A program made the translations under genes and the position numbers. This document shows, in pieces, positions 7,408 to 34,863 of a DNA stretch of 64,000 nucleotides. The notes beneath the pieces are model-generated. The model was not told the DNA's origin and made no database searches. It saw only the letters and a list, made by a program, of their open reading frames with translations. The stretch is from Sphingobium sp. HWE2-09 (lineage in GTDB: Bacteria > Pseudomonadota > Alphaproteobacteria > Sphingomonadales > Sphingomonadaceae): assembly GCF_035989265.1 (NCBI RefSeq), contig NZ_JAYKZX010000003.1, positions 2,790,001 through 2,854,000 on the forward strand, written 5' to 3'. Every line of letters starts with the position of its first letter. Position 1 is the stretch's first letter.

Positions 7408-7545
7408 AAAAAAAGGGCCGATCCGAAGACCAGCCCGTAAAGTTTTAGGAGAGGATGCCTGAAAGGCCTGATCCTATTGGCCGATCCCGCTTCATGCCGC
7501 AAATGCGAAGGAAAGCAGAGCGATTGCAGGTTATGCAATCATGGG
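7408..7545 (-). ncRNA. Small RNA candidate 1 with anti-Shine-Dalgarno motif
   Basis: On the minus strand this segment shows, 5' to 3': a hairpin of seven perfect base pairs (7522-7540), a short palindrome CGCATTTGCG (near 7498-7507), a 29-base block at 7440-7468 identical to candidate 2 that contains ATCCTCTCCT, and a GC hairpin (7415-7436) followed by seven T. It starts just after the ftsK stop codon, so it could be a 3'-UTR-derived or independent transcript. The ends are inferred from the hairpins. Homology with 14253-14390 covers structure while the spacer differs. It may belong to the suhB-like alphaproteobacterial sRNAs, which I could not test. Confidence 0.7.
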
Positions 7546-7558
7546 CCGTTTCAGCGCG

Positions 7559-9922
7559 TCACAGCGGATTGCCATTTTCGTCGCGCAACACTTCGCGGCG
7601 GCCGACATGGTTGGGGGCGCCGACCAGGCCTTCTTCCTCCATGCGTTCGATCAGGCGGGCGGCGCTGTTGTAGCCGACGCGCAGTTGCCGTTGTAGCCAG
7701 CTGGTCGAGGCCTTCTGATTTTCGAATACGAGCTGGCACGCCTTGCGGAACAGCTGGGCATCCGGGCTGTCGTCGCCCAGGTCCACGCCGTCGAGGGCGA
7801 AGCTGCCTTCTTCGGGTTCTTCGGTCACGGCCTGGATATAGTCGGGCTGGCCCTGCGCGCGCCAATGGTCGGCGACGACGCGGACTTCATCGTCCGAGAC
7901 GAAGGGACCATGGACGCGGGTCAACCCCTTGCCGCCGTGCATGTAGAGCATGTCGCCCTTGCCCAGCAATTGTTCGGCGCCCTGCTCGCCCAGGATGGTG
8001 CGGCTGTCGATCTTCGACGTCACGAAGAAGCTGATGCGGGTCGGCAGGTTTGCCTTGATGACGCCGGTGATGACGTCGACCGAGGGGCGCTGGGTCGCGA
8101 GGATGAGGTGGATGCCCGCCGCGCGTGCCTTTTGCGCCAGGCGCTGGATCAGAAATTCGACTTCCTTGCCCGCCGTCATCATCAGGTCGGCGAGTTCGTC
8201 CACCACGACCACGATCTGGGGCAGCGGCTGAAAATCGAGCTGTTCTTCCTCATAGATGGGCTTGCCGGTTTCGGGGTCGTAGCCGGTCTGGACGCGGCGG
8301 CCCAAAGGCTTGCCCTTGGCTTTGGCGGCACGGACCTTCTCATTATAGTTGGCGAGGTTGCGGACGGAGATGGACGCCATCATGCGATAGCGGTCCTCCA
8401 TCTGCTCGACCGCCCATTTGAGCGCGCGGATCGCCTTGGCCGGTTCGGTCACGACCGGGGAAAGCAGATGGGGAATGTCGTCATAGGTCGACAGTTCCAG
8501 CATCTTGGGATCGATCATGATCAGGCGCAGCTGGTCCGGCGTCATGCGGTAGAGCAGCGACAGGATCATCGCGTTCAAACCGACCGACTTGCCCGACCCG
8601 GTAGTGCCCGCGATCAGCAGATGGGGCATGGGGGCGAGGTCGGCGATGATCGGTTCGCCCGAGATATTCTTGCCCAGGATGATCGGCAGAGTCGCTTCCT
8701 GCATGAACTGTTCGGATGTGATGAGTTCGCGGAAGGACACGCCTTCGCGATGGGCGTTGGGCAGTTCGATGCCGATGACGGTACGCCCGGGAATCGTCGC
8801 GACGCGGGCGGACAGCGCCGACATATTGCGGGCGATGTCGTCGGCCAGCGCGATCACGCGGCTCGCCTTGATGCCCGGCGCGGGTTCCAGTTCGTACATG
8901 GTGACGACCGGACCGGGGCGGACTTCGGTGATGTTGCCCTTCACATGGAAATCGTCGAGCACCGATTCGAGCAGGCGGGCGTTGCGTTCCAGCGCCGCCT
9001 TGTCGATCTTGCCGCCCTGGTTGGCGGGAATGGGGTTGAGCAGATCGGGCGACGGCAGCGAGCTGTGGCCGAACAGATCGTCCTGGCTGATCGGGGCCAT
9101 GGCGCGCTGCACCGGCGCGGGCTTGGGCGACTGGATGGTGATGGGCGGCTTGGGTTCGTTCGACACCTGTTTGCGCGGGGCGATGACGCGCTCGGCCGGT
9201 TCGTCGTCGTCCTCATCTTCGGCATCGATGGTGTTGCTGCTACCGGGAAAGCCCAGCGTCGGGCGTGGCAGGTTGAGCTTAGGCAGTGAGGGGCGGCGCA
9301 AAGCGATGATCGGCTTTTCCAGCGCAAGGCTGCGGTAGCAGGCGAACAGGCCCGCGATCAGCGTGCCGACCACCAGCGCGCCCTTGATCCAGGGCGCGGC
9401 GGCAGGCGCCTGCGCGGTCAGGCTGGCGACGCCCTTGGCCACGACCAGGCCGATGACCCCGCCCCAGCCGGCGGGCAGGCCGACCAGCGGCGCATCCTGG
9501 AACAGAGCGAGCGCGATGCCGATCAGGACGATGCCGAACAGGCATTTGCCGAACTGCCCCTTCCACTCGCTCATATCCTGGTCGCCCCACATGCGCCGCG
9601 CCGTGATCGCCATCAGCGGCAGGATCAGCGCGACGGGAACGCCCAGCAGCCAGAGCAGGAAGTCGGCGGCCCAGGCGCCGGGCGCCTGCATGATGTTGGC
9701 CACATGATCGCCCGCAACGGTGTTCATCGAAGGGTCGCTGGGGGCATAGCTGAGCAAGGCGAGGGCGAGGAACAGCGTCGCCAATATGAGCAGGATCGCG
9801 CCGATCAGCGCGCCACTGCGCAACAGGCTGCGCTTGAGCATTTCGCGCCATTCCGGCGTGCGTTTCACGGTGCGGCCGACGGCCATATTGCTGTGTGTCC
9901 CCCAAATGTTCCGTTTCGGCAC
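7559..9922 (-). CDS. ftsK: DNA translocase FtsK
   Basis: FtsK is a septal motor that pumps the chromosome terminus through the closing division site and activates XerCD. The 787-residue product has about four membrane segments within the first 190 residues, a short Pro/Ser-rich linker, and a RecA-like motor with Walker A GTTGSGKSVG near residue 440 and Walker B VVVVDELADLMM. A C-terminal winged-helix gamma domain (STSWLQRQLRVGYNSAARLIE) would read KOPS sites. An alternative start at 9886 (MAVGRTV) is possible. lolA and a small-RNA candidate follow it. Confidence 0.95.
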   Translation of the reverse strand: MPKRNIWGTHSNMAVGRTVKRTPEWREMLKRSLLRSGALIGAILLILATLFLALALLSYAPSDPSMNTVAGDHVANIMQAPGAWAADFLLWLLGVPVALILPLMAITARRMWGDQDMSEWKGQFGKCLFGIVLIGIALALFQDAPLVGLPAGWGGVIGLVVAKGVASLTAQAPAAAPWIKGALVVGTLIAGLFACYRSLALEKPIIALRRPSLPKLNLPRPTLGFPGSSNTIDAEDEDDDEPAERVIAPRKQVSNEPKPPITIQSPKPAPVQRAMAPISQDDLFGHSSLPSPDLLNPIPANQGGKIDKAALERNARLLESVLDDFHVKGNITEVRPGPVVTMYELEPAPGIKASRVIALADDIARNMSALSARVATIPGRTVIGIELPNAHREGVSFRELITSEQFMQEATLPIILGKNISGEPIIADLAPMPHLLIAGTTGSGKSVGLNAMILSLLYRMTPDQLRLIMIDPKMLELSTYDDIPHLLSPVVTEPAKAIRALKWAVEQMEDRYRMMASISVRNLANYNEKVRAAKAKGKPLGRRVQTGYDPETGKPIYEEEQLDFQPLPQIVVVVDELADLMMTAGKEVEFLIQRLAQKARAAGIHLILATQRPSVDVITGVIKANLPTRISFFVTSKIDSRTILGEQGAEQLLGKGDMLYMHGGKGLTRVHGPFVSDDEVRVVADHWRAQGQPDYIQAVTEEPEEGSFALDGVDLGDDSPDAQLFRKACQLVFENQKASTSWLQRQLRVGYNSAARLIERMEEEGLVGAPNHVGRREVLRDENGNPL

Positions 9923-10023
9923 AATGCCTCCGACGGCGAGTCCGCGTCAAGGGTGCGGCGGATCGGCTCGTCCCGCCGTTATATGATAGCCCGATGGGTG
10001 GGCGTTCCCCAGCACATGGAGCG

Positions 10024-10506
10024 TCAGTTGTCGGCGAGTGCCGCCAGCGCGGCCCCGTCCAGCCGCTGCACCGTCCAGCCGTCCATCGGCGTCGCGCCGA
10101 TCGCGCGATAGACGGCGATGGCGGGTGCGTTCCAGTCGAGCACCGACCATTCGAGCCGGGCGCAATCGCGCGCGATCGCCAGTTGCGCCAGACGCGCAAG
10201 CAGCGCCTTGCCCGCGCCAAGGCCGCGGGCCTGCGGCAGGACGAACAAATCCTCCAGGTAAATGCCCGGCCGTCCTTCGAAGGTCGAGAAATTGTGGAAG
10301 AACAGCGCGAAGCCGACGGCCGTGCCGTCATGGTCAGCGATCAGCACTTCGGCCATCGGCCGTTCGCCGAACAGATAGCGGGCGAGCGTGGCGCGGTCGG
10401 CCTTTACGGCATGGGCAAGCCGTTCATAGTCCGCCAGCGCCAGGATGAAATCGTGGATTGTGCCGATATCGTCGGCGCGGGCCGGACGAATGATGATGTC
10501 GGTCAT
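10024..10506 (-). CDS. GNAT family N-acetyltransferase
   Basis: The product is about 160 residues and shows the GNAT acetyl-CoA loop in the segment VLPQARGLGAGKALL, preceded by EDLF. The overall pattern (RPARADDIGTIHDFI, then LADYERL, then a C-terminal AIAVYRAIGA) resembles the diamine/spermidine acetyltransferase branch, but the substrate is not certain. The start at ATG 10506 is chosen because MTDIIIRPA is the usual family N terminus; it overlaps the stop of the upstream exporter gene by four bases, so the two are probably co-translated. Confidence 0.85.
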   Translation of the reverse strand: MTDIIIRPARADDIGTIHDFILALADYERLAHAVKADRATLARYLFGERPMAEVLIADHDGTAVGFALFFHNFSTFEGRPGIYLEDLFVLPQARGLGAGKALLARLAQLAIARDCARLEWSVLDWNAPAIAVYRAIGATPMDGWTVQRLDGAALAALADN

Positions 10507-11405
10507 GCTGCGCCCGCCTCCACATGGGCAACCGCTGCCCCTTTGCTGCGCGCCGCGATAAGGCAGCCCGCGACGATGAGCAATGCGCCTGCCACGGTCG
10601 TGAGCGTCAGCCGCTCGCCAAAGGCCAGCCAGCCCATGATCGCTGCCCATAGGAAGGCGCTATATTCGACCGGGATCAGCCGCTGAGCCTCCGCCCGGGC
10701 ATAGGCCCAGGACAGGGCGGCGAGCGAGGTGAAGGCGAGGCAGGCGGCCAGCAGTACCAGTGGCGCGGCATGTAGCGGAGGCAGCGTTAGCAGAAAGGGC
10801 GCGCCGAACGCGAAAACACCGAGCATGACGAGGTGCTGGAAGAAGGCGACCTCGATCGGCGACGCGACCTGCGCCTGTTGCCGCTGGATGATGAGGTTCC
10901 AGGCGAAAAGGATGGCGGACGCCAGCACCGCGCCAGCGCCCAGCAGCGCGTCGGCATTATAGACGCCCGCAATCCGGCCCGACAGGATGACCCCTACCCC
11001 CACCAGCCCCAGCAGCGACGCCATGATCGCCTGTCGCCCGACGCTTTCCTTGAGCAGCAGCGCGGCGAGGTACAGGGCGATCAGCGGCGCGATGAAGGAC
11101 AGCGCGATCGCTTCGGCGAGCGGCATCCGCATGAGCGCCCAGAAGAAGAGCGCGGCCATCAGCGCCACCACCGTCCCGCGCAGCAGATGGATGCGCAGCA
11201 CTGCGCGCGAGGGCCAGCGCTGGCGGGTGAGCAGCATCAGGGCGAGGCCCAGCAGCGTGCCGGTGACCGCGCGCCAGAACAGGGCGTTGTAAAGGCCGAT
11301 GGAGAGACTCAGCCCTTTCATCGCCGCGTCCATCACGGAAAACAGCGCGACACCGGCGCAGCAGACGGCGAACGGGACGGCAAAGCCGCCGGGCGAGGAA
11401 CGCAC
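10503..11405 (-). CDS. DMT (EamA) family transporter
   Basis: The 300-residue product is almost entirely hydrophobic, with about ten predicted membrane helices in two EamA repeats (roughly residues 10-140 and 150-285). This is typical of drug/metabolite exporters of the inner membrane. No substrate can be read from the sequence. It overlaps the downstream acetyltransferase gene (ATGA) and lies just downstream of ispG, 14 bases away, so the three may share a transcript. Confidence 0.87.
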   Translation of the reverse strand: MRSSPGGFAVPFAVCCAGVALFSVMDAAMKGLSLSIGLYNALFWRAVTGTLLGLALMLLTRQRWPSRAVLRIHLLRGTVVALMAALFFWALMRMPLAEAIALSFIAPLIALYLAALLLKESVGRQAIMASLLGLVGVGVILSGRIAGVYNADALLGAGAVLASAILFAWNLIIQRQQAQVASPIEVAFFQHLVMLGVFAFGAPFLLTLPPLHAAPLVLLAACLAFTSLAALSWAYARAEAQRLIPVEYSAFLWAAIMGWLAFGERLTLTTVAGALLIVAGCLIAARSKGAAVAHVEAGAA

Positions 11406-11418
11406 CGGATCGCTCCGC

Positions 11419-12579
11419 TTATTCCGCCGCCTGCGCCTTGCCCGCGTCGGTCATGTCGGCTTCGGCACTGGCCGCTTCGATTTCCGCCGCCTTGGCTTCG
11501 ACCAGGCGGACGATATGATCGACCATGCCTTCATCCTGCACGACATGGTCGGTGACGCCCGAGAGATAGACCATATGCTTGCCCGCGCCGCCGCCGGTCA
11601 GGCCGATATCGGTCTCGCGCGCTTCGCCGGGGCCGTTGACGACGCAGCCCAGTACCGAGAGCGAGAGCGGCGTGTGGATATGCTGGAGCCGTTCTTCCAG
11701 CGCCTGCACGGTGCGGATGACGTCGAAGCCCTGACGCGCGCAGGACGGGCAGGAGATGACTTTCACGCCGCGGGTACGGATGCCGAGCGATTTGAGGATT
11801 TCATAGCCGACGCGCACTTCCTCTTCCGGTTCGGCGGAGAGGGAGACGCGGATCGTGTCGCCGATCCCGGCCCAGAGCAGGTTGCCGATGCCGATCGCGC
11901 TTTTCACCGTGCCGCCGATCAGGCCGCCCGCTTCGGTGATGCCCAGATGCAGCGGGCAATCGACCGCGTCGGCCAGCTGCATATAGGCGGCGACGGCGAG
12001 GAAGACGTCGCTGGCCTTCACCGCGACCTTATATTCGTGGAAATCCTGGTCCTGCAGCAGCTTGATATGGTCGAGCGCGGATTCGACCAGCGCTTCGGGG
12101 CAAGGTTCGCCATATTTTTCGAGCAAGTCCTTCTCAAGCGACCCGGCGTTGACGCCGATGCGGATCGAGCAGCCATTGGCTTTGGCCGCGTCCACCACTT
12201 CCTTCACCCGGGCTTCGCTGCCGATATTGCCGGGGTTGATGCGCAGACAGGCCGCGCCTGCGTCGGCCGCTTCCAATGCGCGCTTATAGTGGAAATGGAT
12301 GTCGGCGACGATCGGGACGCGGACAGCGCGGACGATCTGTTTCAGCGCCGCGGTCGACTCTTCGTCGGGGCAGGAGACGCGGATGATGTCCACGCCCGCT
12401 TCCTCGCAGCGGCGAATCTGGTCGATCGTGCCCTTCACGTCGTGCGTCAATGTATTGGTCATGGTCTGGACCGTGACGGGCGCGCCGCCACCGACGGGCA
12501 CGTTGCCGACCATGATCTGGCGCGATTGCCGCCGCGCTATGTCGCGCCAGGGGCGCAGGCCGGGATTATGGTCGGACAT
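11419..12579 (-). CDS. ispG: 4-hydroxy-3-methylbut-2-enyl diphosphate synthase (flavodoxin/ferredoxin) IspG
   Basis: IspG (GcpE) performs the penultimate step of the MEP isoprenoid pathway using a [4Fe-4S] cluster. The 386-residue protein has the cluster cysteines in [10 protein letters not shown] (about residues 275 and 278) and [10 protein letters not shown] (near 310). Other family motifs are VQTMTNT at the N terminus and LRINPGNIG. The ATG at 12579 lies directly beside an unusual leader hairpin that contains the apparent Shine-Dalgarno sequence, listed separately. Confidence 0.95.
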
Positions 12580-12580
12580 G

Positions 12581-12611
12581 AAAAGAGGCTCCGTAAGCTA
12601 CGGAGCCTCCT
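12581..12611 (-). promoter_or_regulatory. ispG leader hairpin covering the Shine-Dalgarno sequence
   Basis: On the minus strand AGGAGG (12606-12611) overlaps the 5' arm of a perfect 11-bp hairpin (arms 12599-12609 and 12585-12595, 3-base loop). The hairpin is followed by TTTT, one C and the ispG ATG. It has the shape of an intrinsic terminator placed between ribosome binding site and start codon. It could attenuate ispG, hide the binding site, or bring it close to the start when folded. Confidence 0.6.
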
Positions 12612-12659
12612 ATAGGGATATTTGGTGACGGTTAGAAGCGGGAGTCCTTATTGTTTCTA

Positions 12660-12739
12660 CCGCACCAGCCCGCACCCCCACCCGACCGCCCACAGAGTAT
12701 CCTGGTTGGGCGGTCGGGTGGGGGTGCGGGCCGGTGCGG
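12660..12739. terminator. Long hairpin between fadL-like gene and ispG
   Basis: Two 33-base arms pair with one mismatch around a 14-base loop, starting 7 bases downstream of the fadL-like stop codon. It would form a very stable structure. No T run follows on either strand, so it is not a textbook intrinsic terminator, but blocking transcription or 3' exonucleases is the likely role. Confidence 0.65.
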
Positions 12740-12745
12740 CGAGAG

Positions 12746-14047
12746 TCAGAAGCGTAGCGTGAGCGATGCGGCGACCTGGTCCGCATTGCCGCTGGTCTGG
12801 GCCAGCGTCGTCGCTGTCACCGTCGCGGGCGCGGGGAAGTAGCTGTCGGGGCGGATGATGTTCGCCTTTTCCACGAAGGTGTGGGCGTAGCTGACATTGA
12901 GCGCCATCGCGTCCGACATGTTCCAGGTCGCGCCGCCGGTCAGCCAGACGCGGTCGCCATCGGGCACGCGGGTGGTCAGATATTGGGGATTGGTTGGCGA
13001 CCGGTCGAACATCGTGCCTGCGCGCACGGTGAAGGCCGGGCTGAGATCATATTCGCCGCCAACGCTGACCGAATAGCTGTCCTTATAATCCAGTTCCTTG
13101 TTGGTCGTGCCGGTGGCCGAAGTGACGGCAATGGCCTTGAACCGCGACCAATTATACCATTTGCCGGTGATCATCGCGCGCAGTTGCGGGGTCAGCTTGT
13201 GCATCATGCTGAGCGTGACGATGTCGGGCAGGTCGAGGGGGGCGGTGGCGGCAAAGGAGCCGTTGCCCGCGGCGATCGGGCCGAGCAGCCCGGATATGGT
13301 CTGGGTGCCCGCCAGCTTGTGGCTGATCCCCGAGCGATAATGAGCGCCCCAATTGGTGTCGCCGGTCGTGTAAAAAATGCCCGCGTTCCAGCCGACCGAC
13401 CAGTCGTCACCCTTGAGGCTGGCGAAGCCGTCGGTGGCGGCGAGCGGGGAAAGTTGGGGCAGCGCGTTGGTCAGCGTCGCCTTCACATATTGCACGTCGA
13501 CCCCGCCGCCGATCGACAGATTATCCGTCACCTTATAGGCGGCCGAGGGCTGGATATTATAGGTTTTGAGGTTGGTGTAGAGCGAATCATAGCGGCCGAA
13601 GAAGCCGTCATCATATTCCAGTTTCAGGCCGAAAGGCGCGTTGACGCCCAGGCCGACCCAAAGCCGGTCGCTGACCTGTGCGCTGGCGTAGAAGCTGGGG
13701 ATGGGGATGACGCTTTCGAACGGATTGCCGCCATCATTGCCGGTGACGGGCGTGGTGACGGGCAGGCCCGGAATGGAGCGGCGCGATCCGCGATTGGTCT
13801 GGTGCGCCGAGGCGAACAGCGCGACGCCGCCGACCGAGGTCTGGATGCCGTCCAACTGCGTCATCGCGGCGGGGTTGAAATAGATGGTCGATGGGTCGTC
13901 CCCCGCCGCCGCGCCGCCGGACAGCGCGCGGCCGGTTTCCTTGGGTGATTGTTCCTGCAGGTAGAAGCCGCCGGCAAAGGCTGGCGTCGACGCCAGCATG
14001 ACGCCGGACAGGCAAAGGGCGGAAATATGGCGACCGCGAAGCAACAT
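12746..14047 (-). CDS. FadL/OmpP1/TodX family outer-membrane transporter
   Basis: FadL-type barrels take up long-chain fatty acids or aromatic hydrocarbons through the outer membrane. The 433-residue product has a signal peptide ending in TPAFA and then GGFYLQEQSPKETGRALSG, the plug-like N terminus of the family. The NPA motif of FadL proteins (YFNPAAMTQL) follows. It ends in the C-terminal aromatic residue usual for barrels (SLTLRF). The start at 14047 is preferred because AGAGGA lies seven bases upstream; a start seven codons earlier (14068) is also possible. Promoter elements should lie in 14048-14250. Confidence 0.9.
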   Translation of the reverse strand: MLLRGRHISALCLSGVMLASTPAFAGGFYLQEQSPKETGRALSGGAAAGDDPSTIYFNPAAMTQLDGIQTSVGGVALFASAHQTNRGSRRSIPGLPVTTPVTGNDGGNPFESVIPIPSFYASAQVSDRLWVGLGVNAPFGLKLEYDDGFFGRYDSLYTNLKTYNIQPSAAYKVTDNLSIGGGVDVQYVKATLTNALPQLSPLAATDGFASLKGDDWSVGWNAGIFYTTGDTNWGAHYRSGISHKLAGTQTISGLLGPIAAGNGSFAATAPLDLPDIVTLSMMHKLTPQLRAMITGKWYNWSRFKAIAVTSATGTTNKELDYKDSYSVSVGGEYDLSPAFTVRAGTMFDRSPTNPQYLTTRVPDGDRVWLTGGATWNMSDAMALNVSYAHTFVEKANIIRPDSYFPAPATVTATTLAQTSGNADQVAASLTLRF

Positions 14048-14469
14048 GGCAGATCCTCTACTGAACATGATATTTGGCCTTGATCGATGGCATTCGACCT
14101 AATGAGTGGCGCATGAACGGGTCGGCGATATCAGGATTGTGGTTAAATTCCAGTAAGCGCGCCACGCTTTTGCGCGCATATCGGCGCGTCCGGCCGTCGT
14201 CGGGATCGCAGGACGTTACGGCAACTGGGACAGAGGCCAGCCCGATCGAGACAAAAAAAAGCCGCCCAGGAGGACGGCCTTGAAGTTTTAGGAGAGGATG
14301 CCTGAAAGGCCCGTTCCTTTTGCGGTGCAGCAGGGATTGTCGCAAATGCGAAACATGGCGGCGCGATTGCATTTCATGCAATCATCATGTTTAGGCCCGG
14401 TTTCCGTAAGGGAAGATGGCGGGAAAAATGTGACAAGGCTGTCATTCGGCCGCTGCGAAAAAGCGATTT
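14048..14469. other. Intergenic region with promoter space for fadL and small-RNA candidate 2
   Basis: This 422-base gap holds no convincing gene. The part next to the fadL-like gene (14048-14252) must carry its promoter, but I cannot name clear -35 and -10 boxes. The part 14253-14390 is the small-RNA candidate. The remaining 80 bases up to the phosphomannomutase stop codon contain TTGTCA on the minus strand, a possible -35 element for the small RNA. Confidence 0.5.
14253..14390 (-). ncRNA. Small RNA candidate 2, homologue of the one at 7408
   Basis: On the minus strand it has the same order as candidate 1: a seven-bp hairpin (14365-14383, GATTGCA against TGCAATC with a different loop), the motif TTCGCATTTGCG (14341-14352), the 29-base block identical to candidate 1 (14283-14311, containing ATCCTCTCCT), and a terminator hairpin GCCGTCC/GGGCGGC (14261-14278) followed by eight T. 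The terminator differs in sequence yet keeps its structure, which points to selection on RNA folding. The spacer between the motifs is not conserved. It lies downstream of the phosphomannomutase gene. Confidence 0.7.
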
Positions 14470-31858: not shown

Positions 31859-32028
31859 GGTGACGTAGCGGAAAGCTATTGTTAAGCCGTTGCCGATAAG
31901 CAACAGCGCAGGATCATTCGCCTGTCATCCTGACCAAAAGGCACGGAAAAGCTGGGGTCACTTGCCTTCGCCTGACTGTGTCCGCATAATCGACGGGCGT
32001 TCCGACGGGACAAAAAGTCGCGCGGACC

Positions 32029-32038
32029 AGGAGAGGAT
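32029..32038 (+). promoter_or_regulatory. Ribosome binding site of the TonB receptor, complementary to the small-RNA motif
   Basis: AGGAGAGGAT lies eight bases before the receptor ATG (32047). It is the exact complement of the motif ATCCTCTCCT in both small-RNA candidates, so an antisense block of translation is possible. Complementarity alone is not proof, because a C-rich motif will match many strong ribosome binding sites. Confidence 0.6.
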
Positions 32039-32046
32039 AGACCATC

Positions 32047-34863
32047 ATGACAGACAAGAGTCTCTGGACGTCGGCCGCCATCATCGCCTTGGCCCTTGGC
32101 GCATCTGCGGCCCATGCGCAGGAGGATGCGACGCCGCAACCGGTCGTGGATGACGGCAGCGCCAACATCATCGTCACCGCCACCCGCCGCGCCAGCCCCC
32201 TGTCCGACGTGCCGATCGCGGTATCGGCGGTGGGCGCGCAGGCGATGCAGAATAGCGGCGCGAGCGATATTCGCACGCTCAATCAACTGGCCCCGTCGCT
32301 GCTGGTGTCCTCCACCGGCTCCGAAGCCAATGCGTCGGCGCGTATTCGCGGCATCGGCACGGTCGGCGACAATCCCGGCCTCGAAAGCTCGGTCGCGGTG
32401 TTCATCGACGGCGTCTATCGATCGCGCACCGGGTCGGGCCTCAACGAACTGGGCGAGATCGAGCGGGTCGAGGTACTGCGCGGGCCGCAGGGGACGCTGT
32501 TCGGCCGCAATGCGTCGGCGGGCCTGATCAACATCATCAGCAAGGCGCCGGAAAACACATTCCATGCCAAGGGTGAGATCACCTATGGCAATTATGATTA
32601 TTGGCGGCTGTCGGGCCGCGTCACCGGGCCGATCGCCGATGGTATTGCGCTCAGCCTCGACGGGGTGTGGAGCAAGCGCGACGGCTTCTACAAGCTGGTC
32701 GACGGCGCGGGCAATAAAGTCGGCGATACCAACGACCGCAACCGCTATTTCCTGCGCGGCCAGGCGCTGATCGAACCCACCGACGCGCTCTCCATCCGCC
32801 TGATCGGCGATTACACCAATCGCGACGAAAGCTGCTGCGGCGCGGCCTATATCGAGGCGCGCGAGCGGCGGCCGGCGGGCGGCGGCTATAGCACCGCGCC
32901 GTTCAATCGCATCGCCGCGATCCTGGCGGGCCAGGGCAGCGTGATCCCCGCCGATCCCTATGACCGCGAACTGCATGTGACGCCGGGCCGCGACTATGTC
33001 AGCAAGCTCAAGGATTGGGGCGTGTCTGGCGAGATCAATTATGATTTCGGTGGCGCGAAGCTGACCAGCATCACCGCCTATCGCGATTATAAATCCCGCG
33101 ATTATGGCGATTACGACTATAATCGCGCCGACCTGCTCTACCGCGACCCCAACACCTATCGCCAGTTCAAGACCTTTACGCAGGAATTGCGGCTGCAAGG
33201 GTCGGCCTTTGCCGACAAGCTCGACTGGCTGGTCGGCGGCTATTACGCCAATGAACGGCTGACCTTGCAGGACAATATCCGCTTCGGCGCGGATTATGGG
33301 CGCTTTGCGGCCTGTCGTTTGATGGCGGGCGCCGGGGTCAACAGCAATTTCACCGCGCAGCAACTGGCCGCGTGCGGCAGCGGCGCGGCGACCGGTGCAC
33401 TGATCACCGGCACGCAGGCGCAGCTGAATGCGGGCCTGACCGCCGCGCTGATCGGCAACGGCGTGCCTGCGCCGATCGCTGCGGCGCAGGCGGGGGCGAT
33501 TTCCACCGGGCTTGGCAACGGATTGCGCGCGTTGGCGGCGATCCCGTCCGGCACCGGCGACGTAGCGTCGCTCTACCGCCAAAAGAGCGAGAATTGGGCG
33601 CTGTTCACGCACAATATCTTTCACATCACCAACCGGCTCGATCTGACCGTTGGCGTGCGCTACACGCACGAAAGCAAGCGTTTCTCGTCCGATTTCAACA
33701 ATAATAATGCGACCTGCGCGGCGTTGCAGTCGTCCGCCCTCCCCGGCCTTGCGACCAATCCGGCGCTGGGCAGCGCGGCGACGCTGGCGGGAGGTATCCT
33801 GACTTTGGGCTGCCTGGGCAATGGCTCGACCAGCCTCAATGCACTGAACCTCAACGACAAGATCAGCGAAGGACAGTTTTCGGGGACCGCGGTGCTGTCG
33901 TGGAAGCCGATCGACGATCTGCTGCTCTATGGCAGCTATTCGAAGGGCTATAAGGCGGGCGGCTATAATCTCGATCGCTTCCAGTTGGGATCGACCGGCC
34001 TGAACGCGGTGCCTGCGGTATTTTCGCCGCGCACCAATGCCGATGTCAGCAGCCTGCGCTTCGCGTCGGAAAAGGTGGATGCGTTCGAAGTGGGCATCAA
34101 ATATGTCCAGCCCAAATGGAGCGTGAACGTCGCCGCCTTCCGTCAGGAGTTCAAGAATTTCCAGCTGAACACCTTCAACGGCACCAGCTTCGTTGTGCAG
34201 AATATCAATGGCTGCGACAGCGCGCTGTCGGCGGCGCGGACGTGCGACGATGACGATGTCGGCCCCGGCCTGATCAGCCAAGGCGTGGAACTGGAAGCGT
34301 CGGTCAGCCCGGCGCGCAATTTCCGCGTATCGGGCGGCGCGACTTATGCGCGCGCGAAATTCGCCAACCGGCTGGTGGGTAGCGGCAATGGCGCGGTGCC
34401 GCTGGACCCGGCGCTGTTCCTGTTGCCCGGATCGATCAACAGCAACGCGCCACAGATCGTCACTACCGCCAGCATGGCCTGGACGCCGGACATCGGTTCA
34501 TCGGGCCTGTCGGCGCTCTTCTACGTCGATGGGCGCATGACCAGCGACTTCAACACCGGGTCCGACCTGTTCCCCGAAAAGCGGCAGGACGGCTTTGCGG
34601 TGGTCAACGCGCGCGTCGGCCTGCGCGGGCGGGACCAGCGCTGGGCGATCGAATTGTGGGGGCAGAATATATTCAACCAGAATTATACCCAGGTCGCCTT
34701 CTCCAGCCCGCTCCAGTCGAGCAGCCCGTGTACGTCATCTACGGGCCAGTTCGGGGGACTGTGCGGGACGCCCCCGGCCGCAGTACCGATGGCGAACCAG
34801 CTGATCTCCGCCTATCTGGCCGAACCGCGCACCTATGGCATCACGTTGCGCGGGAGTTTCTAG
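32047..34863 (+). CDS. TonB-dependent outer-membrane receptor
   Basis: The 938-residue product has a signal peptide (cleavage after AAHAQ, residue 25). A plug domain follows, with IIVTATRRASPLSDVP (TonB-box-like region), ARIRGIGT and VEVLRGPQGTLFGRNASAG. The rest is a long 22-strand type barrel ending YGITLRGSF with a terminal Phe. Such receptors import siderophores, vitamins, glycans or aromatic compounds using TonB energy. The absence of adjacent transport or degradation genes leaves the substrate open. It carries a Gly/Ala-rich insertion near residues 420-500. Expression may be controlled by the small-RNA candidates. Confidence 0.93.
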   Translation: MTDKSLWTSAAIIALALGASAAHAQEDATPQPVVDDGSANIIVTATRRASPLSDVPIAVSAVGAQAMQNSGASDIRTLNQLAPSLLVSSTGSEANASARIRGIGTVGDNPGLESSVAVFIDGVYRSRTGSGLNELGEIERVEVLRGPQGTLFGRNASAGLINIISKAPENTFHAKGEITYGNYDYWRLSGRVTGPIADGIALSLDGVWSKRDGFYKLVDGAGNKVGDTNDRNRYFLRGQALIEPTDALSIRLIGDYTNRDESCCGAAYIEARERRPAGGGYSTAPFNRIAAILAGQGSVIPADPYDRELHVTPGRDYVSKLKDWGVSGEINYDFGGAKLTSITAYRDYKSRDYGDYDYNRADLLYRDPNTYRQFKTFTQELRLQGSAFADKLDWLVGGYYANERLTLQDNIRFGADYGRFAACRLMAGAGVNSNFTAQQLAACGSGAATGALITGTQAQLNAGLTAALIGNGVPAPIAAAQAGAISTGLGNGLRALAAIPSGTGDVASLYRQKSENWALFTHNIFHITNRLDLTVGVRYTHESKRFSSDFNNNNATCAALQSSALPGLATNPALGSAATLAGGILTLGCLGNGSTSLNALNLNDKISEGQFSGTAVLSWKPIDDLLLYGSYSKGYKAGGYNLDRFQLGSTGLNAVPAVFSPRTNADVSSLRFASEKVDAFEVGIKYVQPKWSVNVAAFRQEFKNFQLNTFNGTSFVVQNINGCDSALSAARTCDDDDVGPGLISQGVELEASVSPARNFRVSGGATYARAKFANRLVGSGNGAVPLDPALFLLPGSINSNAPQIVTTASMAWTPDIGSSGLSALFYVDGRMTSDFNTGSDLFPEKRQDGFAVVNARVGLRGRDQRWAIELWGQNIFNQNYTQVAFSSPLQSSSPCTSSTGQFGGLCGTPPAAVPMANQLISAYLAEPRTYGITLRGSF

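Follow-up and report, generated by a model that had tools for sequence, protein, structure and literature searches.

The RNAs considered here have described relatives in the alpha-r8 family of small RNAs. Sinorhizobium meliloti has a single alpha-r8 copy, the 10-mer UUUCCUCCCU has been called common to alpha-R8 RNAs, and in most single-copy species the sRNA gene adjoins an N-formylglutamate amidohydrolase gene (PMC12559287). In S. meliloti, mmgR is repressed by PhaR via a site in its promoter (excerpts of PMC12542648 and PMC8401924), while the promoter of another sRNA, NfeR1, carries the LsrB site TGCA-N6-GCAT at -72 to -60 (PMC10746234). SuhB of Sphingopyxis has been mapped as an RNA of 61 nt and represses thnR with Hfq; its expression in Sphingopyxis granuli TFA rises with growth rate, and PHB acts positively on suhB (all from excerpts of PMC6563040). 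In Caulobacter, SisA represses the mRNA of a TonB-dependent receptor, pairing via its 10-mer (PMC12559287), and Hfq dependence is reported for relatives (excerpts of PMC6563040; PMC12559287). In the open-access literature that was searched, no account was found of a shared promoter or a LysR regulator for the siblings described below.

The window, that is, the whole stretch of 64,000 nucleotides that was analyzed, contains two minus-strand loci which the initial annotation had taken for homologous sibling sRNAs with an anti-Shine-Dalgarno block, possibly of the suhB family. Both exceed the RF00519 gathering cut-off of 41 bits in the Rfam check, copy 1 with 50.7 bits (at 7474-7400) and copy 2 with 46.6 bits (at 14317-14244), and both contain the anti-Shine-Dalgarno core AUCCUCUCCU. 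The common block is indeed exactly 29 bases long and reads GGCCTTTCAGGCATCCTCTCCTAAAACTT, at 7468-7440 and 14311-14283 (minus strand), and both copies end, as described, in a GC hairpin with a T run, the sequences of which are unlike. The predicted RNAs are as follows.

7408..7468, minus strand: sRNA copy 1, predicted transcript of about 61 nt (start placed from the -10), with a 5' hairpin GCCUUUCAGGC, a single-stranded core and a terminator
7447..7456, minus strand: anti-Shine-Dalgarno core AUCCUCUCCU of copy 1
14253..14311, minus strand: sRNA copy 2, predicted transcript of about 59 nt, with the same plan as copy 1
14290..14299, minus strand: anti-Shine-Dalgarno core AUCCUCUCCU of copy 2

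Copy 1 is flanked by an FtsK gene and a LolA gene and copy 2 by a phosphomannomutase-type gene and a FadL/TodX-type gene, and the ispG/gcpE gene is located between the two copies; these genes, instead of the N-formylglutamate amidohydrolase gene, are the neighbors of the window copies.

The two loci are part of a larger set. The genome has nine RF00519 matches, six of them above the cut-off, and these six copies form one subtype: they score 72.7-85.4 bits (85.4 for copy 1 and 72.7 for copy 2) with the subtype model R2, which was made from 46 copies with these six included, against at most 34.8 bits for the canonical-type loci tested. In the subtype, the core is AUCCUCUCCU or AUCCUCUCCC where canonical alpha-r8 RNAs have UUUCCUCCCU. 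The assignment to the alpha-r8 family stands, because all 13 other subtype loci tested (13/13) exceed the RF00519 cut-off. Judged by sequence and model scores, the window copies are therefore homologous and inside the Rfam family, but they carry a variant of its core. The word AUCCUCUCC is unchanged across the 46 copies of alignment A2, partly by construction, since these copies were picked by a pattern holding GGCATCCTCTCC.

Conservation outside this genome, to which the initial annotation had tied its reading of both loci as sRNAs, is seen in RF00519 and core 15-mer matches in relatives and in subtype copies in other named genera. RF00519 matches number 3 to 11 per genome in 37 genomes of the genus (the present one included), and 0 to 3, with a single case of 5, in 24 genomes from the order's other families. 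The closest named relatives of the window locus are Sphingobium species, and at least 21 of 31 genomes of the genus also have the 7-kb window pair, by reading of the listed promoter matches. Among 75 named ispG loci, R2 matches occur solely in L039-L042 and L088, with both copies at L039, L041 and L042 and one copy each at L040 and L088; the Sphingobium ispG loci L043 and L044 have no R2 match. Genome-wide, the named genomes contain 2, 2 and 2 subtype copies in Sphingopyxis, 4, 6 (one weak), 3 and 2 in Sphingobium, 4 and 5 in Novosphingobium, 2, 3 and 2 in Sphingomonas, 1 in Tsuneonella and 0 in Hankyongella. With one mismatch allowed, the core 15-mer was found in 198 of 296 genomes of the order, by reading of the list 190/213 in the same family and 8/83 in other families, and inspection of the eight other-family matches (L126-L133) revealed no sRNA. 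In the genome under study, six of the seven core 15-mer matches are the sRNAs, among the matches listed. Across 240 genomes of the class, R2 gave at least 72.7 bits in this genome and in two of its own family, and at most 37.5 bits in ten others. The subtype is apparently confined to one family, which we call Sphingomonadaceae because of its named relatives.

Apparent tandem copies, with two core matches 182-400 bases apart, were observed in genus g37 (G181, G221, G256 and G247). A gene resembling a CDC48-type AAA ATPase lies downstream of the sRNA in 14 of 31 subtype loci (L134-L141, L143, L144, L146, L153, L154 and L280), by reading, with two checked by Pfam; the site beside this gene may be where the sRNA was ancestrally located.

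The similarity of the siblings is not restricted to the RNA. An alignment (A1) of the 80 nt upstream of 46 copies is almost gap-free and contains a module with, from 5' to 3', a dyad TTGCR-N5-YGCAA, a spacer, the element TTYGCAxTTGCx, 17 nt, a -10-like hexamer (CAYATA or CAAWAG) and the common block, which begins about 6 nt further. The TTGCxx within TTYGCAxTTGCx fits a -35, and the distance from the dyad to this element is 14 nt in 39 of 45 copies and 13 nt in 4, the dyad being unplaced in the remaining 2. The 7-bp hairpin with a changed loop (GATTGCA...TGCAATC) and the short palindrome CGCATTTGCG (7507-7498 and 14350-14341, minus strand) that had been described for the window copies were both found again in each of them; the former looks like the predicted operator dyad of this module, and the latter appears to overlap the predicted -35.

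7524..7538, minus strand: predicted operator dyad TTGCATAACCTGCAA of copy 1, of the T-N11-A form, identical with the 7-bp hairpin
14367..14381, minus strand: predicted operator dyad TTGCATGAAATGCAA of copy 2
7497..7509, minus strand: TTCGCATTTGCGG, the conserved TTCGCA plus predicted -35 TTGCGG (7502-7497) of copy 1; includes CGCATTTGCG
14340..14352, minus strand: TTCGCATTTGCGA, the conserved TTCGCA plus predicted -35 TTGCGA (14345-14340) of copy 2
7474..7479, minus strand: predicted -10 CAATAG of copy 1, placed by its spacing of 17 nt from the -35
14317..14322, minus strand: predicted -10 CAAAAG of copy 2, a weak hexamer, likewise placed by its spacing of 17 nt from the -35

The promoter model R1 matches upstream of all six copies of the genome (E 1.1e-13 to 3.7e-5), as it must by construction, since these six are among its 46 rows. 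The weakest match belongs to the copy on contig C1, a plasmid or second replicon (L006), in which the dyad is degenerate, with 7/10 positions. No R1 match at E <= 1 was found in 17 canonical-suhB loci, of which three come from this genome. The dyad seems to behave like a protein site: positions 2 to 4 of its arms are invariant in 45/45 copies, and the fifth position is purine/pyrimidine, with the non-pairs A-C in 7/45 and A-G in 1/45. Furthermore, the module also occurs without an sRNA, in this genome at C3:910326 (E 3.1e-5), before the gene of a 98-aa secreted protein, and at C3:3104797 (E 0.012), before that of a 27-aa peptide, and in relatives before the 98-aa protein, the 27-aa peptide or a 49-62-aa protein in 5 of 20 inspected regions, which had been chosen as likely to lack the sRNA; two of these five match only the later part of R1.

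As for the small proteins themselves, the 98-aa secreted protein (L120 1627-1923; L228 in a relative) has no Pfam match above cut-off and no relative in the PDB. The 27-aa peptide is conserved as MRxxFQG..VAVGxQMLTFYSVLxA (L125; L221 and L224 in relatives), and the 49-62-aa protein, MFSLLSLYFAYRRDVV..., was seen in two relatives (L222, L223), where only part of the module precedes it.

A gene for a LysR-type regulator is divergent from the sRNA in several genera. The orthologue in this genome (G000:C3:2468889-2469764) has the Pfam domains HTH_1 and LysR_substrate, and its start at C3:2468889 faces an sRNA ending at 2468632, with the predicted operator between them. A divergent gene with a T-N11-A dyad in between is the usual layout for LysR-type regulators. 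Both marks of a LysR-type promoter were found: a LysR gene in divergent orientation and, upstream of the -35, a T-N11-A dyad, which here precedes the predicted start by about 63 bp. With a profile of four regulator proteins, searched in 66 genomes and with at least 400 bits taken as orthology, an orthologue was detected in 41 of 42 genomes with the sRNA (16/16 of Sphingobium type and 25/26 others with a core match) and in none of 24 without it. The latter comprise 12 genomes of the same family without a core match (0/12, G295 having a 201-bit relative) and 12 of other families (0/12, best 138.8 bits); the single miss of the 42 is G139, the core match of which is putative. The Fisher p of 4e-17 for this co-occurrence ignores relatedness and overstates the evidence, because the genomes are related and sRNA presence was scored by 15-mer, RF00519, R1 or R2, not by a uniform test. 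In 22 of the 30 best orthologue loci, two of them from genomes supplying profile rows, the sRNA is divergent beside the regulator with the promoter and predicted operator between, and in the other 8 no sRNA lies inside the 1.5 kb fetched. It is probable, on this genomic evidence, that the shared promoter is read by a dedicated regulator protein.

It could also be imagined that the siblings share an operator which is read by some other factor, and that the LysR gene is an ancient neighbor kept by linkage. The separation of regulator and sRNA in those 8 of 30 loci would suit such an arrangement, as would the fact that the dyad resembles what other factors bind, such as the TGCA-N6-GCAT site of LsrB (PMC10746234). 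We regard it as unlikely in view of the divergent layout with the T-N11-A dyad between the genes, of the presence of the regulator with the sRNA even where they are unlinked and its absence where there is no sRNA, and of the absence of LsrB from the 10 family genomes tested. LsrB/VtlR was itself tried as the regulator and rejected: the dyad fits the published site (PMC10746234), but the gene was not found in the family genomes tested. A LysR gene adjoins trxB in 17 of 30 loci of the class, and no LysR gene lies beside trxB at the locus of this genome. The trxB-linked LysR, which from its place and from general knowledge we take to be LsrB/VtlR, gave no match at E <= 1e-40 in 10/10 genomes of the family, the present one included, and was positive in 8/8 genomes of other families of the order and in 3/3 class controls. 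The sRNA-linked LysR has 24.6-28.5% identity to it.

The mRNA leader of the dedicated regulator may itself be addressed by the RNAs. AGGATG is found 82-87 nt before the start in 11 of 14 regulator leaders of the genus; three leaders (L325, L329, L330) have an 11-nt match to the sRNA core, GGAGAGGATGC, and the one in this genome (L327) a match of 7 nt (shuffle p 0.04). Regulator leaders outside the genus have no AGGATG at 82-87 nt. A feedback of the siblings on the regulator mRNA is therefore possible, as far as complementarity can indicate it.

At another group of loci (L136, L141, L148, L150 and L153), the gene divergent from the sRNA resembles succinyl-CoA:3-ketoacid CoA transferase subunit A, and the one at L141 is CoA_trans by Pfam. 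This enzyme belongs to ketone-body and PHB-related metabolism. The gene is a possible partner of the sRNA operator.

The existence of a promoter module has consequences for the extent of the RNA. The initial annotation had proposed two transcripts of 130-140 nt with the upstream hairpin and CGCATTTGCG within the RNA, which is probably wrong; the 5' half of these segments would instead be promoter. In the predicted folds, the window copies have a weak hairpin, a single-stranded core and then a Rho-independent terminator, and both predicted transcripts (-20.8 kcal/mol, z -3.44 for copy 1; -20.9 kcal/mol, z -3.24 for copy 2) fold better than 200/200 dinucleotide shuffles. The upstream dyad is able to fold as RNA as well, and most shuffles of the whole 138-nt segments fold less well than the originals (z -2.74 and -2.11), so that folding alone cannot fix the start of the RNA. 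What makes the long transcripts very improbable is that the dyad and CGCATTTGCG keep a fixed spacing to -35/-10-like hexamers, that the module also precedes protein genes without an sRNA, and that SuhB of Sphingopyxis has 61 nt (excerpts of PMC6563040). In addition, the dyad, with its invariant arm positions 2-4 (45/45) and a mismatched fifth one (8/45), is unlike the covarying terminator: 10 of 13 predicted pairs are changed on both sides among the 46 related copies, and all ten are in the terminator. The case also serves as a warning that a palindrome preceding an sRNA may be an operator and need not belong to the RNA.

The promoters may receive further inputs besides the common one. The PhaR/AniA consensus is YGCRNYGCR (excerpts of PMC12542648), and the promoter of copy 2 contains a sequence that fits it.

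14321..14329, minus strand: TGCACCGCA, fits PhaR/AniA YGCRNYGCR, between the -35 and -10 of copy 2

The consensus is not present in the copy 1 promoter. It was found in the spacer of 12/46 promoters against 0.2 expected by shuffling, the sequences being related and not independent. As common regulator, PhaR/AniA was rejected, having a site in 12/46 promoters only and none in copy 1; to judge from these motifs, PhaR may act additionally on some copies. Siblings with independent control, sharing the core alone as do SisA-D of Caulobacter, would belong to the same RNA family, and the stretches between the conserved promoter elements do differ among copies, while the PhaR-like site is restricted to some of them (12/46). 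These two observations make extra, copy-specific inputs likely; with 6/6 copies of this genome matching one promoter model, independent control seems very improbable. Finally, the notion that the hairpins are mere terminators of the upstream ftsK-like and phosphomannomutase-like genes, each indeed lying just downstream of a same-strand gene, without an RNA of their own, can practically be dismissed, given that core and promoter are conserved beside unrelated neighbors and that family members are proven sRNAs (excerpts of PMC6563040; PMC12559287).

With respect to targets, a scan of 1102 genes in about 1.28 Mb of the genome, window included, revealed start regions complementary to the core over at least 8 nt in 33 cases, at least 9 nt in 9 and at least 10 nt in 4. 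Shuffled cores averaged 5.7, 1.2 and 0.3, with a maximum of 20 at 8 nt or more in 300 shuffles; part of the excess is trivial, because shuffling loses the anti-Shine-Dalgarno word, and ordinary Shine-Dalgarno sequences are a confounder of complementarity to the core. The canonical core gave 10, 2 and 1 start regions. TonB-dependent receptors account for two of the four best matches, 2/12 against 2/1090 of the other genes (p 6e-4), a small enrichment in a post hoc test that arose partly after part of the data had been seen, with a receptor set of 12 genes defined by a simple pattern. The effect is not clearly specific, because matches to the canonical core are likewise more frequent among receptors (p 0.0045), with a similar but non-significant tendency for the 16S anti-Shine-Dalgarno sequence (p 0.07). 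One of the candidates is located in the window.

32022..32054, plus strand: ribosome-binding region of the gene 32047-34863 (TonB-dependent receptor), predicted candidate target

The sequence AGGAGAGGAU before this gene is complementary to the core over 10 nt. On such complementarity, TonB-dependent receptor mRNAs are the best guess for targets, and it is plausible that the two window siblings have mRNA targets in common, as had been suggested.

Taken together, we consider it likely that the genome encodes six suhB/alpha-r8 paralogues of about 60 nt, belonging to one subtype, with a common promoter, under the joint control of a LysR-type regulator, and silencing mRNAs at their ribosome-binding sites. 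Directly backed by the sequence are the RF00519 homology, the altered core, the common promoter with fixed spacing at six copies and the divergent LysR gene at one, with the predicted operator between; the linkage and co-occurrence of regulator and sRNA in relatives are also supported by sequence. Because all of them carry one promoter, the siblings look like a coordinated silencer set and not like unrelated duplicates. The LysR-type regulator would bind TTGCR-N5-YGCAA, at about 63 bp ahead of the start, and would set the transcription of all siblings together, plus that of a few small-protein genes. The sRNAs, presumably with Hfq, would pair via AUCCUCUCCU with ribosome-binding sites and block translation, with TonB-dependent receptor mRNAs as leading candidates. 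The RF00519 family was already known; the six copies, the common promoter and the linked regulator, as predicted here, would be new.

More tentatively, and with less than even confidence, one could envisage that one family has swapped the ancestral suhB wiring for a self-contained LysR/operator circuit, including two to three tiny proteins and a leader feedback, which in a Qrr-like manner retunes outer-membrane receptors. It is similarly speculative that this circuit consists of several sRNAs with identical cores across the genome, the gene dose of which has grown in some genera. Such a rewiring of sRNA control would agree with LsrB having been lost in this family.

These siblings bear on the question of why bacteria keep several near-identical sRNAs: the alpha-r8 siblings of Caulobacter have unrelated promoters, whereas here the siblings appear to be controlled jointly, with one protein as candidate master regulator. 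With one candidate regulator and a changed core, redundancy, dosage and target choice therefore become testable via a single LysR gene or its operator. Sphingobium and related bacteria are degraders of many pollutants, and the one studied member of the RNA family, Sphingopyxis SuhB, controls a pollutant-degradation pathway.

Among known systems, the Qrr sRNAs of Vibrio likewise are several co-regulated, dispersed siblings (according to excerpts of PMC12559287), an analogy only, with no relation of sequence or regulator claimed. NfeR1/AbcR1/VrsA of rhizobia, which LsrB/VtlR activates, are also anti-Shine-Dalgarno sRNAs with a LysR-type T-N11-A site, and the dyad described here, TGCA-N6-GCA with its center at about -63 by prediction, matches the position of the LsrB site at NfeR1; in contrast to the LsrB/VtlR sRNAs, a different LysR protein and an unrelated sRNA family are involved. 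The RF00519 suhB/MmgR RNAs (alpha-r8, with MmgR of Sinorhizobium meliloti) have the same weak 5' hairpin, C-rich single-stranded core and terminator, whereas here AUCCUCUCCU or AUCCUCUCCC replaces UUUCCUCCCU, and there are a separate promoter module and several copies. SuhB of Sphingopyxis granuli TFA shares the order and the family name and is a 61-nt, Hfq-dependent repressor acting on an mRNA leader (excerpts of PMC6563040); it is likened to the present RNAs by description and not by sequence, and three other Sphingopyxis genomes have 2 subtype copies each. SisA-D of Caulobacter crescentus, finally, are sibling alpha-r8 sRNAs with an anti-Shine-Dalgarno core too, but they have no conserved promoter motif and display individual expression patterns (PMC12559287), whereas the siblings described here have one promoter in common.
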